A stretch of DNA of 64,000 bases, from contig NZ_JAMDLG010000001.1 in NCBI RefSeq assembly GCF_023721715.1, positions 685,889 through 749,888 on the forward strand, given 5' to 3'. Of the stretch, positions 13,650 to 59,147 are shown one piece after another. A program made the translations under genes and the position numbers. The notes under the pieces are model-generated. The model searched no databases. It was given only the letters and a program-made list of their open reading frames with translations, and had not been told where the DNA came from. Position 1 is the first letter of the stretch; each line of letters begins with the position of its first letter. The DNA is from Parasegetibacter sp. NRK P23 (lineage in GTDB: Bacteria > Bacteroidota > Bacteroidia > Chitinophagales > Chitinophagaceae).

Positions 13650-13680
13650 TTGAGGTATTTTTGATTCACGCGATTGCTTC

Positions 13681-13735
13681 CTGCTTCGTTCCTCGCAGTT
13701 CGCAACGCAAGGGGGCCTGCTTCGTTTCTCGCAGG
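13681..13735. repeat. Two tandem copies of the CTGCTTCGTT-CTCGCAG repeat
   Basis: CTGCTTCGTTCCTCGCAG (13681-13698) recurs with one change at 13717-13734. Each copy is followed by ACGCAAGG or a variant, giving a 36-base period. The same 18 bases recur exactly at 22734-22751, and a variant is at 48281-48301. All copies are intergenic. Confidence 0.6.
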
Positions 13736-13795
13736 ACGCAAGGACCGGTTCATTTGCAAGAGTTTTTTATACGTCATCATCCCTTTTGCTCAAAT

Positions 13796-22502: not shown

Positions 22503-22696
22503 AAAGAGTTTTAAAGTACTAAAATTTGTTCGTTCGTAGCGGGGCAAAATTCAGGACTTAACATTAAAGTAATGATTTGGTCACACTGAATTAAACGAAT
22601 GGTAACATTTAGTTAATGAAAACTTAACATGGGAGCTACTGCGGTAGTGGGCGGAGCGCTTTAAGGATTGGTTTTAGGATAGTTTTTCACGCAAAC

Positions 22697-22760
22697 TGCT
22701 TTGTGCTGTGCACGTCGCAGACGCAATGGAGCACTGCTTCGTTCCTCGCAGACGCAAAGA
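22697..22760. repeat. Tandem copies of the CTGCTT...CTCGCAGACGCAA repeat
   Basis: A diverged copy (22697-22725) is followed by CTGCTTCGTTCCTCGCAG at 22734-22751, identical over 18 bases to 13681-13698. The spacing of 37 bases matches the 36-base period seen there. Confidence 0.6.
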
Positions 22761-22829
22761 GTGGTTGGGTGTGCAGTTAGCTGGGGGAATATTTTCTCAC
22801 CATTACTTCGCAACTCGCAACGCCTACGA

Positions 22830-23250
22830 CGCCACGCGTTGATTAGTGGGGAGTCGGTTTTGGGGCAGAACTTTTAGGGGAAGATGGTTTTTTGCGATGA
22901 TTTTTGATGGAAGATACTGGGAACGCCACGCGTTGATTAGAGCATAGGTTTATGCGCAAAACTTTTTTGGGGAGCGTTTTTTTGTGAAAGCTTAGAGAAT
23001 TGTAAGGAGAGGTATTGGAGATCCCACGCATGGATTGGTAAGGAGTAGATTTATAGGAAGAGTTTATTAACGAAGATGATTTTATTGGATAGCTATAGAG
23101 GATTTTTAAAGAAAGATATTTTATACGCCATGCGTTTATTGGTGGGGAGTGGATTTAAGGGAAGAACTTTTACCGGAACGGCTGTTTTGGAAGAGATAAT
23201 TCAGGACGTTACATTGGAGGATAATTCTCTTGCGGAGACGCAAAGGCGCG
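22830..23250. repeat. Degenerate tandem repeat, units of about 94-104 bases
   Basis: Unit starts are recognisable at 22830 and 22924 (both CGCCACGCGTTGATTAG), 23023 (CCCACGCATGGATTGG) and 23126 (CGCCATGCGTTTATTGGTG). A fifth trace (GCATTGATGAGTGG) lies near 23252. Each head is followed by GGGGAG and, further on, AAAACTTTT-like and GAAGATG-like words, with growing divergence. The repeat sits between the porin and a PhnB-like gene. Confidence 0.55.
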
Positions 23251-56114: not shown

Positions 56115-57215
56115 TTACTGCTCTTTGAATACGCCGGAACTGGCTGGTCCGGGTAATTCAGAGAGTTTCACTTCCGGTTTGTTTACTTCGCTCACACTGT
56201 GGATTTCCATCAGCAATCGCGGTTCTTTACCCATCACTTTTTGGATCGTTTCCTCCGGTTTTTTCATGCCTACGTAATGGTTGGCGCTGATCACGGAGTG
56301 GCGGTCTATCTGGCGTGGTCCTTCAATGGTCCAGTCGGAAGTATGTTTTTTCTCGAAGCGGCATTCGTTGCAGATCCATCCTGGTTTTCCGTCGGCGGTA
56401 TCTTCTACTTCACCCCACTGGTCTTTGCGGGCGGTTACGCGGAACACTTCGTCGCCACGGTACCAGAGCGTTGTTTGTCCGCAACACTTCTCACAATCCC
56501 TGTGTGCGTTCACTGGTTTCAGGAACCAAACGCGGTTCTTGAAACGGAAAGTTTTATCGGTCAGTGCGCCTACGGGGCAAACATCAATCACGTTTCCACT
56601 GAAATCGTTGGTGATGGCTTTGCCGAGCAGGGTGGATATTTCAGACTTCTCGCCTCTTTCCAGCACACCGTGGATCCTGGCATCGGTCAGTTGCTCCGCG
56701 GTGAATACGCAACGGTAGCAGAGGATGCAGCGGGTCATGTGCAATTGGATATTCGGGCCGATGTCTTCTTTTTCGAAGGTTCTTCTATCGAATTCGTAGC
56801 GGGTGCTTTCGGCGCCGTGCTCATAGCTGAGGTCCTGGAGATGGCATTCCCCTGCCTGGTCGCAGATGGGGCAATCCAGGGGGTGGTTGAGGAGCAGGAA
56901 TTCCACCACGCCTTTACGGGCATCGATCACGCGTTCGCTGGTAATGCTTTTCACGATCATGCCATCCATCACGGTGGTGCGGCAACTGGCTACCAGTTTG
57001 GGCATGGGTCGTGGGTCGGCAGTGGAGCCGGCGGCTACTTCTACCAGACAGGTACGGCATTTCCCGCCGCTTCCCTTCAGTTTGCTGTAGTAGCACATAG
57101 CGGGCGGGGTAACATCGCCTCCGATCTGACGCGCGGCCTGGAGGATCGTGGTTCCGGGGGGAACTTCGATGGTGATGTTGTCTACCGTTACTTTAAATAG
57201 TTGTTGTTCACTCAT
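56115..57215 (-). CDS. nuoG: NADH-quinone oxidoreductase subunit G (short form)
   Basis: A 366-residue iron-sulfur subunit. A 2Fe-2S ferredoxin domain holds N1b (MCYYSKLKGSGGKCRTC, then CRTT). The HPLDCPICDQAGECHLQD region holds N5, and RCILCYRC plus DVCPVGAL hold N4. A CEKCCGQ...WICNECRF segment follows. The molybdopterin-oxidoreductase domains of the longer (about 700-900 residue) NuoG proteins are absent. Short NuoG proteins occur in related bacteria, so this is probably normal and not a truncation. The GxxExxY cassette lies just upstream. Confidence 0.93.
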   Translation of the reverse strand: MSEQQLFKVTVDNITIEVPPGTTILQAARQIGGDVTPPAMCYYSKLKGSGGKCRTCLVEVAAGSTADPRPMPKLVASCRTTVMDGMIVKSITSERVIDARKGVVEFLLLNHPLDCPICDQAGECHLQDLSYEHGAESTRYEFDRRTFEKEDIGPNIQLHMTRCILCYRCVFTAEQLTDARIHGVLERGEKSEISTLLGKAITNDFSGNVIDVCPVGALTDKTFRFKNRVWFLKPVNAHRDCEKCCGQTTLWYRGDEVFRVTARKDQWGEVEDTADGKPGWICNECRFEKKHTSDWTIEGPRQIDRHSVISANHYVGMKKPEETIQKVMGKEPRLLMEIHSVSEVNKPEVKLSELPGPASSGVFKEQ

Positions 57216-57225
57216 CCTCGTATGT

Positions 57226-57265
57226 TTTTTTCACGCAAAGACGCAAGGGAGCAGAGACGCAAGGA
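57226..57265. repeat. Left 40-bp terminal inverted repeat of the GxxExxY cassette
   Basis: A 40-base sequence built of TTTTTTCACGCAAAGACGCA followed by AGGGAGCAGAGACGCAAGGA. It is the reverse complement of 57728-57767 with one mismatch. It lies 11 bases upstream of nuoG. Confidence 0.85.
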
Positions 57266-57313
57266 TGCGATAGCGTTACTGATTGTTAATATTTTTCGAT
57301 CTGCTACTTTCAT

Positions 57314-57691
57314 TTAAAGCCCGTTTGCTATTCTGTGAAATCCATCTTTTAAAAGATCAACGTTAAAATTGATCAGTAATCCCAGTTTTATATCCGTCAA
57401 CTTCAAATAGGTAATAATCTGTTTGAAGTGAATCTTTTCCAATTGTTCCACTGATTTAACTTCTACTATCACACATTCTTCTATCACCAAATCTGCACGA
57501 AAACCACGCTTCATTTCCAACCCCTCATGCACAACTTTCACAATCTTCTGCCTTTCCACCTCCCAACCCCGTTTCGTTAATTCATAACAGAGCAATTCTT
57601 CGTATACGCTCTCAAACAACCCCGGCCCAAATTTCCTATGCAAATCCAAAGAAGCCTCAAACACACCCCTTGCAATCTCATTCTCTATCAT
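57314..57691 (-). CDS. GxxExxY family protein
   Basis: A 125-residue protein. The name-giving motif is GLFESVY (residues 24-30), in RKFGPGLFESVYEELLCYEL. The core ends with FRADLVIEECVIVEVKSVEQ, a D-x(n)-E-x-K arrangement that recalls PD-(D/E)xK nucleases and is typical of the family. The C-terminus reads INFNVDLLKDGFHRIANGL. The molecular function is not established. The frame is open to a GTG at 57727, next to the right inverted repeat. The ATG at 57691 (MIENEIARGVFEASLDLHRK) matches the usual family start. Confidence 0.88.
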   Translation of the reverse strand: MIENEIARGVFEASLDLHRKFGPGLFESVYEELLCYELTKRGWEVERQKIVKVVHEGLEMKRGFRADLVIEECVIVEVKSVEQLEKIHFKQIITYLKLTDIKLGLLINFNVDLLKDGFHRIANGL

Positions 57692-57727
57692 CTCCAAGTA
57701 TTTTACACCTGCAAAATACTCAACCAC

Positions 57728-57767
57728 TCCTTGCGTCTCCGCTCCCTTGCGTCTTTGCGTGAAAAAA
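57728..57767. repeat. Right 40-bp terminal inverted repeat of the GxxExxY cassette
   Basis: Reverse complement of 57226-57265 except for one base (GCGGAG for GCAGAG). It lies 24 bases after the nuoF stop. Confidence 0.85.
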
Positions 57768-57791: not shown

Positions 57792-59147
57792 CTACGCCTC
57801 CGCCGGAACATAAATAGGATCCGCATAATGCCTCAACCCATAATTCCCCTTCACCGCCTCATCCGGATGCAGCACATGCCACTCAAATTCATCCCTGAAA
57901 TGCCTGATGGCAGCAGCTACGGGCCAGGCCGCAGCATCTCCCAGCGGGCAGATCGTATTGCCTTCGATCCTGCGCTGGATATCCCACAGCAGGTCGATAT
58001 CACTCATTTTGCCTTTTCCTTTCTCGATGTTCTTCAGGATTTTATACATCCAGCCCGTACCTTCCCGGCAGGGAGAGCACTGACCGCAACTCTCGTGGTT
58101 GTAGAAATGCGCCAGGGTCATGGTATGTTTTACCACGCACTGGTCTTCATCGAGTACGATGAAACCGCCGGAACCCATCATGGAGCCGGTGGCGAAGCCG
58201 CCATCACTCAGACTTTCATAGTTCATGTAGCGGGTTTCACCTTTCGCTGTTTTCAGCAAAAGGTTAGCGGGCAGGATGGGCACGGAAGAACCGCCCGGGA
58301 TACATGCCTTCAGCTTTTTACCATTGCGGATACCGCCACAATATTCATCGGAATAAATAAATTCTTCTACTGAGATGGTCATGTCAATCTCGTACACGCC
58401 ACCTTTGTTGATGTTGCCGCAGGCGGAGATCAGTTTGGTACCGGTGGAACGGCCTACGCCGATTTTAGCGTATTCCTCCGCGCCGATGTTCATGATGGGC
58501 ACGATGGCGGCGAGTGTTTCCACATTGTTCACCACAGTCGGACAATCGTACAATCCTTTTACGGCGGGGAACGGAGGTTTGATTCGCGGGTTACCACGCT
58601 TGCCTTCGAGGGATTCGATCAACGCGGTTTCTTCTCCGCAGATGTAAGCGCCGGCACCACGTTGCACGTAGATTTCCAGGTCGAAACCGGTACCTAAAAT
58701 GTTTTTTCCGAGCCAGCCGTTCTGTTTCGCTTCGGCGATGGCTTGTTCAAGAATATCTGGGATCCAGGCGTATTCACCACGGATATAAATGTAAGTGCTG
58801 TTGGAACCCAGTGCATAAGAAGAAACGATCAGTCCTTCGATGAGCAGATGGGGCAGGAATTCCATGAGGTAGCGGTCCTTGAAGGTTCCGGGCTCACTTT
58901 CGTCGGCATTGCACACCAGGTAGCGGGGCACGCCTTCGGGTTTGGCCAGGAAGCTCCATTTCATACCGGTGGGGAATCCGGCGCCACCCCTTCCGCGGAG
59001 ACCACTTTTCTTCACTTCTTCCACAATATCGTTGGGCGCCATTTTCAGCGCTTTCTCCACAGAGCGGTACCCACCGTTTTTACGGTATACATCGTAATAA
59101 CGGATGCCTTCAATATGTGCGTTCTCGAGTAACAGTTTAACTCCCAT
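57792..59147 (-). CDS. nuoF: NADH-quinone oxidoreductase subunit F
   Basis: A 451-residue peripheral-arm subunit that binds NADH and FMN. The glycine-rich NADH/FMN region is GLRGRGGAGFPTGMKW near residue 50. The 4Fe-4S N3 ligands are in ESCGQCSPCREGTGW near 353 and a later Cys in NTICPLGDAAAWP. It starts 20 bases after the nuoE stop. The GxxExxY cassette lies immediately downstream. Confidence 0.96.
   Translation of the reverse strand: MGVKLLLENAHIEGIRYYDVYRKNGGYRSVEKALKMAPNDIVEEVKKSGLRGRGGAGFPTGMKWSFLAKPEGVPRYLVCNADESEPGTFKDRYLMEFLPHLLIEGLIVSSYALGSNSTYIYIRGEYAWIPDILEQAIAEAKQNGWLGKNILGTGFDLEIYVQRGAGAYICGEETALIESLEGKRGNPRIKPPFPAVKGLYDCPTVVNNVETLAAIVPIMNIGAEEYAKIGVGRSTGTKLISACGNINKGGVYEIDMTISVEEFIYSDEYCGGIRNGKKLKACIPGGSSVPILPANLLLKTAKGETRYMNYESLSDGGFATGSMMGSGGFIVLDEDQCVVKHTMTLAHFYNHESCGQCSPCREGTGWMYKILKNIEKGKGKMSDIDLLWDIQRRIEGNTICPLGDAAAWPVAAAIRHFRDEFEWHVLHPDEAVKGNYGLRHYADPIYVPAEA

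Follow-up and report, generated by a model that had tools for sequence, protein, structure and literature searches.

The window analysed here is a stretch of 64,000 nucleotides of the genome of Parasegetibacter sp. NRK P23, in which a small cassette lies between the genes nuoF and nuoG. Its parts are listed in Table 1. On re-alignment, it was found that the two arms of the cassette are reverse complements of each other at 39 of 40 nucleotides, with one mismatch, which is far beyond chance. The open reading frame (ORF) that they enclose matched Pfam PF13366, the only Pfam family that it matched (E 2.6e-37), and TIGR04256, GxxExxY (E 2.8e-39). An earlier reading of this DNA made from the letters alone (the sequence-only reading) had described both the 40-base inverted repeat around one GxxExxY gene and its place between nuoF and nuoG; both descriptions hold, the latter by the minus-strand gene order nuoF, GxxExxY, nuoG. 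The units of the home arm are, in order, ACGCAAAG, ACGCAAGG, GAGCRGAG and ACGCAAGG. Judging from its sequence, the true start of the gene is probably an ATG inside the ORF, at 57691, since relatives start with M-x-E-N-E. The subterminal stretch is probably non-coding, and several dispersed repeat copies carry a similar one (AGYGGTTGAGGTGCTGCAGG).

Table 1. Features of the nuoF-nuoG cassette and of solo repeat copies in the window.
Feature	Position	Strand	Remark
nuoG	56115..57215	-	Host operon gene downstream of cassette
Arm 3' of gene	57226..57265	+	Reverse complement of 5' arm (39/40)
GxxExxY / PDDEXK_3 nuclease ORF	57314..57727	-	137 aa from GTG; sole ORF between arms
Subterminal stretch	57707..57727	-	GTGGTTGAGTATTTTGCAGG; adjoins 5' arm
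Arm 5' of gene	57728..57767	-	TTTTTTCACGCAAAGACGCAAGGGAGCGGAGACGCAAGGA on gene strand, four 8-bp units
nuoF	57792..59147	-	Host operon gene upstream of cassette
Degenerate solo repeat copy	13660..13750	+	Two inserts of ~18-24 nt
Degenerate solo repeat copy	22683..22767	+	Two inserts of ~18-24 nt

To our knowledge, no function has been assigned to the widespread GxxExxY family. In the alignment of the family, a D, an E-x-K and a Q are invariant and the motif Q-x-x-x-Y is nearly so, and there is no invariant cysteine for an iron-sulphur cluster. The structure model of the window protein (pLDDT 91) is a minimal PD-(D/E)XK domain carrying the D, the ExK and the QxxxY. The folds nearest to the model, with weak E-values, are those of the Cas4-family protein SSO0001 (4ic1) and lambda exonuclease, while a search by sequence found no relative of GxxExxY in the PDB. 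As predicted by the model, therefore, the fold is a RecB/Cas4-like PD-(D/E)XK fold.

The GxxExxY gene is single-copy in the home genome, while the home arm occurs 103 times at three mismatches or fewer, against 5 occurrences of the reversed pattern. Of the pairs of arm copies within 600 bp of each other, 17 are convergent and 4 tandem, with no divergent pair; chance would give about one pair. Among 48 copies examined, 45 are outside ORFs, where ORFs make up 75% of the loci. The interiors of the pairs are mostly unrelated to each other, and several copies run on into a subterminal stretch similar to the one beside the gene. Rfam holds no family for the repeats. The sequence-only reading had noticed that words of the repeat recur in the window; two of its places are the degenerate copies of Table 1, and the third, at 23230-23250, is weak. 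As a side observation, inserts of 18-24 nt close to CTGCTTCGTTCCTCGCAG often break repeat copies, both of these degenerate ones and many elsewhere in the home genome. The insert has CTGC/GCAG ends of its own and looks like a secondary repeat that targets the units.

The link between gene and repeat was then evaluated on 149 genomes of the home family, Chitinophagaceae, and 80 named loci of many phyla, which gave 146 GxxExxY genes with usable flanks; 448 mechanically chosen ORFs in the same loci served as controls. Flanking inverted repeats (score of at least 12) were present at 108 of the 146 genes (74%) but at only 18 of the 448 control ORFs (4.0%; p 1e-65), and at a higher score cut the figures are 54% and 1.3%. 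The share is 75% in the home family, 71% in other Bacteroidota and 78% in other phyla (23 genes), so that the terminal repeats which the sequence-only reading had linked with GxxExxY, and had proposed to look for in Chitinophagaceae, reach far beyond that family. About 26% of the genes have no clear arms. We found no description of this link in the open-access library searched, an absence that is not proof of novelty; the papers there that name GxxExxY deal with other matters, and typical repeat strings led to unrelated work only.

The arms lie at a median distance of 25-38 bp from the gene. Their sequences vary by lineage (CGCAAAG, CACAGAG, CACGGATAA, AACGCAGATT, TGTCTGAACC..GGATTT), but the build is common to all: 7-mer units spaced 8-10 bp, with internal periods of 8, 9 and 10. 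In a symmetric test, mismatches between arms amount to 9.3% in the units compared with 16.3% in the linkers. By kind, 80 are G-U-compatible and 91 are A-C changes; there is no G-U excess, and therefore pairing in the transcript is not visibly maintained. Better-kept units together with the missing RNA-pairing bias fit recognition of the units by a protein better than an RNA stem.

The genes occupy many unrelated sites. Other housekeeping operons have also been entered in the operon direction, for example between fabD and fabG on a Sphingomonas megaplasmid (L304) and after radA in a Bacteroides record (L303). One locus is conserved across Flavobacterium species (L132, L135, L140, L143, L146, L147, L165, L170, L171, L175, L187), including records titled Sphingobacterium (L140) and Rhizobium (L171), the latter probably mis-binned. 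A search of 50,697 phage records gave no GxxExxY match, and among plasmid records just 8 contain the gene, some of them in a housekeeping gene context. A defence role was considered and dropped, the sole indication being a marginal PADLOC match to RT-associated PDDEXK (E 0.001).

The repeat type was found to follow the clade of the nuclease. Within one host family, TGTCTGAACC..GGATTT arms accompany the GNGFQE clade in 9 of 11 cases (L077 included) and occur in none of about 86 GPGLLE genes with scorable arms; the GPGLLE clade has mostly CRCNRAG units (80), and the GYGFLE clade has GAACGCAGATT arms. Protein similarity and arm similarity are correlated overall (Mantel rho 0.46) and within the GPGLLE clade at protein similarity below 0.6 (rho 0.22), in both cases with 0 of 1000-2000 permutations as high, and the one predicts the other also between the two samples. 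Repeat type and gene clade co-occur by genome as well: a GxxExxY gene is present in 38 of 40 genomes with the CGCAAAG repeat versus 58 of 109 without it (p 5.6e-7), and the GNGFQE clade in 22 of 33 genomes with the TGTCTGAACC repeat versus 25 of 116 without it (p 2.8e-6), with the reservations that the genomes lack independence and that we set the 120-bit clade cut ourselves.

When eight arms were searched against eight genomes (Hymenobacter, Flavobacterium, Nostoc, Geobacter, two planctomycetes and two of Chitinophagaceae type), the matrix was a near-pure diagonal, with about 8 of the roughly 155 matches listed lying off it as counted by eye; Geobacter has few copies. Most genomes tested hold scattered gene-less copies of the arms of their own gene. 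The corresponding matrix within the family is diagonal in some genomes but not in others that have several GxxExxY genes; in G055 and G101, which each have several, arms of another type outnumber the nuo-site type. One genome (G004) has 28 CGCAAAG repeats (L327-L354) and no GxxExxY gene. Several of them form tight palindromes in divergent orientation, whereas the home genome has convergent pairs. Taken together, these sequence comparisons show gene, arms and scattered copies to be a cognate set.

The clearest example was found in Hymenobacter daecheongensis. Here a gene element of 495 bp, with arms identical over 48 nt (L196, L358), is accompanied by six gene-less elements of 95-103 bp with similar arms (L355-L357, L359-L361). 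Two of the latter fold as single-stranded DNA into strong hairpins (z -15 and -6). Arm pairing beyond chance in Hymenobacter is weak (251/5040). Flavobacterium and planctomycetes also hold compact hairpins of the local arm type; the folding z is -9 for a Flavobacterium example and -8 for a Phycisphaerales example.

We compared the nuoF-nuoG junction itself in about 95 genomes of the family and 20 more. GxxExxY is present at 22 junctions, always in operon direction: 16 of these genes form one clade (SH-aLRT 96) from 16 genera, and the other 6 fall in a different clade, whose arms are of a different type. Some fifty junctions are short, at 4-165 bp. Between these states there are frameshifted genes (G042, G073), a 72-bp remnant of arms only (G030) and single arms (G026, G023). 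The cassette may also be swapped, since one genome (G010) has the GxxExxY cassette where its congener (G110) has a four-helix-bundle cassette with an inverted repeat of its own; TIGR02436 was confirmed by profile on two four-helix cassettes other than that of G110. In G141 (L309), whose congener G056 has GxxExxY, the nuo-site arms surround a gene named, from its sequence alone, as an OLD-like ATPase, and therefore the cargo is replaceable between the arms. Taken over the whole nuo clade, the arms are significantly concerted (0/20000 permutations); a locus matches its own arms best in just 7 of 15 cases, and so we do not claim strict homogenisation. As a separate observation, at the nuoF-nuoG junctions of the relatives L208, L207, L244, L270, L296 and L298, four-helix-bundle genes of TIGR02436 type lie within a different inverted repeat, with AAAAGTCAAAATTC units, as if a second gene family had the cassette lifestyle.

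Thus the arms have dispersed and the cassettes form a decay series. Because about fifty junctions are short and others hold decayed or swapped cassettes, the nuo-site cassette is, as far as sequence can tell, an insertion that became resident, old in most lineages, despite the clade that spans 16 genera. The sequence-only reading had regarded one gene conserved at this site across genera as the sign of a fixed operon member, and such conservation is there in part, as that one clade. It had also looked to relatives for empty sites and target duplications: short or empty versions are found, but inspection by eye showed no target duplication at the nuo site or at dispersed sites, with one genome per species and no exact empty sites. 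Its picture of a non-autonomous element mobilised in trans is not borne out in that form: the gene unit is an old resident and not a recent arrival. The non-autonomous members are better read as the gene-less hairpins, and the gene copy as the partner that serves them.

In view of the conserved units and the missing RNA-pairing bias, we propose a RAYT-like role for the nuclease. The window cassette would be the gene-bearing form within a family of genomic elements of very small size. Its single-domain nuclease would recognise the 7-mer units, spaced 8-10 bp, of the arms of its own element, and would cut or process DNA there, probably with the arms in a folded or exposed hairpin state. In this way the element would persist and its arms, alone or together with the gene, would spread to intergenic places, with one resident enzyme gene between its repeats serving a population of gene-less inverted doublets. 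That the nuclease acts on the repeat DNA had been suggested from the sequence at the outset and is probably right, in that repeat type tracks protein clade; binding, cutting and mobilisation of the repeats are what we infer from this pattern. We consider the proposal as a whole fairly probable. Against it stands that neither target duplication nor dated or direct transposition was seen among the genomes compared. Also against it are the mostly unrelated interiors of the home-genome pairs, which set them apart from a classical MITE, the 28 repeats of G004 in a genome that lacks GxxExxY (though several of these form divergent palindromes), the roughly 26% of genes that lack clear arms, and the surplus of other-type arms in G055 and G101.

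Several other explanations were weighed. The nuclease may be selfish in a homing-like manner, cutting cassette-less chromosomes at the site so that repair copies the cassette in, with the arms as remnants of the recognition site. This agrees with one clade at the same site in 16 genera, with the short junctions of other genomes and with the swaps between congeners. It leaves unexplained, however, the genes at many unrelated sites and, elsewhere in the genome, some 100 arm copies and hairpins that lack the gene, and we think it unlikely. Closest to the sequence-only reading is the view that an unrelated transposase mobilises the arms in trans and GxxExxY is cargo. The arms around the OLD-like ATPase gene in G141 and the dispersed pairs with unrelated interiors would suit it; an arm type that tracks the GxxExxY clade across and within genomes is unexpected for cargo, which makes this view improbable. 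The cassette might instead work at the RNA level, its arms forming a long stem in the operon transcript whose excision by RNase III, as happens with 23S rRNA intervening sequences, makes the insertion harmless. It is true that between tandem host genes 93 GxxExxY genes are co-directional and 13 opposed, and that TIGR02436 four-helix genes, kin of the protein of intervening sequences, lie in inverted repeats of their own at the same junction. Since the arm mismatches have no G-U excess over A-C and the gene-less copies scattered outside operons are unaccounted for, we regard this as quite doubtful. Finally, the gene could be a plain, fixed member of the operon whose flanking repeats are accidental or regulatory. 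Its conservation in 16 genera could be cited in favour, but this view is hardly credible, as most related junctions lack the gene, and at other sites, other phyla included, the majority of GxxExxY genes have arms too.

If the RAYT-like proposal is true, there are tiny mobile elements, hitherto overlooked, that are run by a type of enzyme not known for such a role, and GxxExxY gains a concrete and testable substrate in its own arms. Each clade has its own arm type, and therefore an exchange of enzymes and arms offers a test of specificity; a small nuclease that reads repeats could also serve as a tool. It is a serious, if tentative, possibility that GxxExxY proteins are the founders of a further route by which short DNA spreads, in which a stand-alone Cas4/RecB-like nuclease moves or copies hairpins via 7-mer arrays in many phyla, and that they are behind a large share of the CGCAAAG-, CACAGAG- and GATTT-type repeats of environmental genomes. 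The RAYT-like role would also be one way to account for several common families of short repeats, and would give RAYT/REPIN a counterpart outside the HUH enzymes.

Among known systems, the window protein belongs to PF13366 (PDDEXK_3), with a whole-domain profile match above the cut-off and the catalytic D and ExK present. It shares the fold and the D..ExK..QxxxY motifs with Cas4/RecB-type nucleases (SSO0001, 4ic1; lambda exonuclease), but unlike Cas4, GxxExxY is a stand-alone domain of about 125 aa without invariant iron-sulphur cysteines. Terminal inverted repeats and gene-less derivatives recall the MITEs of DDE insertion sequences; on the other hand, the unit has no DDE transposase, no target duplication was found and the interiors are mostly unshared. 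The 23S rRNA intervening sequences with an S23/four-helix protein (PMC4990558) resemble the cassette in that a transcribed operon contains a small ORF enclosed by an inverted repeat. Their protein is different, however, and the GxxExxY repeats are scattered genome-wide with no maintained RNA pairing seen. The nuo junction is also occupied by related four-helix cassettes, and therefore the parallel is worth testing. In the REPIN/RAYT system, REP doublets occur with TnpA-REP (PMC3116915, PMC8266576). As there, a resident enzyme gene is flanked by the repeats that, for GxxExxY, it would serve, gene-less inverted doublets lie in intergenic DNA, the enzyme clade matches the repeat type and residence at a site is long. 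The differences are a PD-(D/E)XK enzyme instead of HUH/Y1, arms built from 7-mer units in tandem at a spacing of 8-10 bp, spacers that vary widely, and no GTAG/CGTC foot as a general mark. The enzyme is unrelated to RAYT and therefore the cassette is not a member of REPIN/RAYT, which by analogy nevertheless appears to be its nearest working model (PMC3116915).
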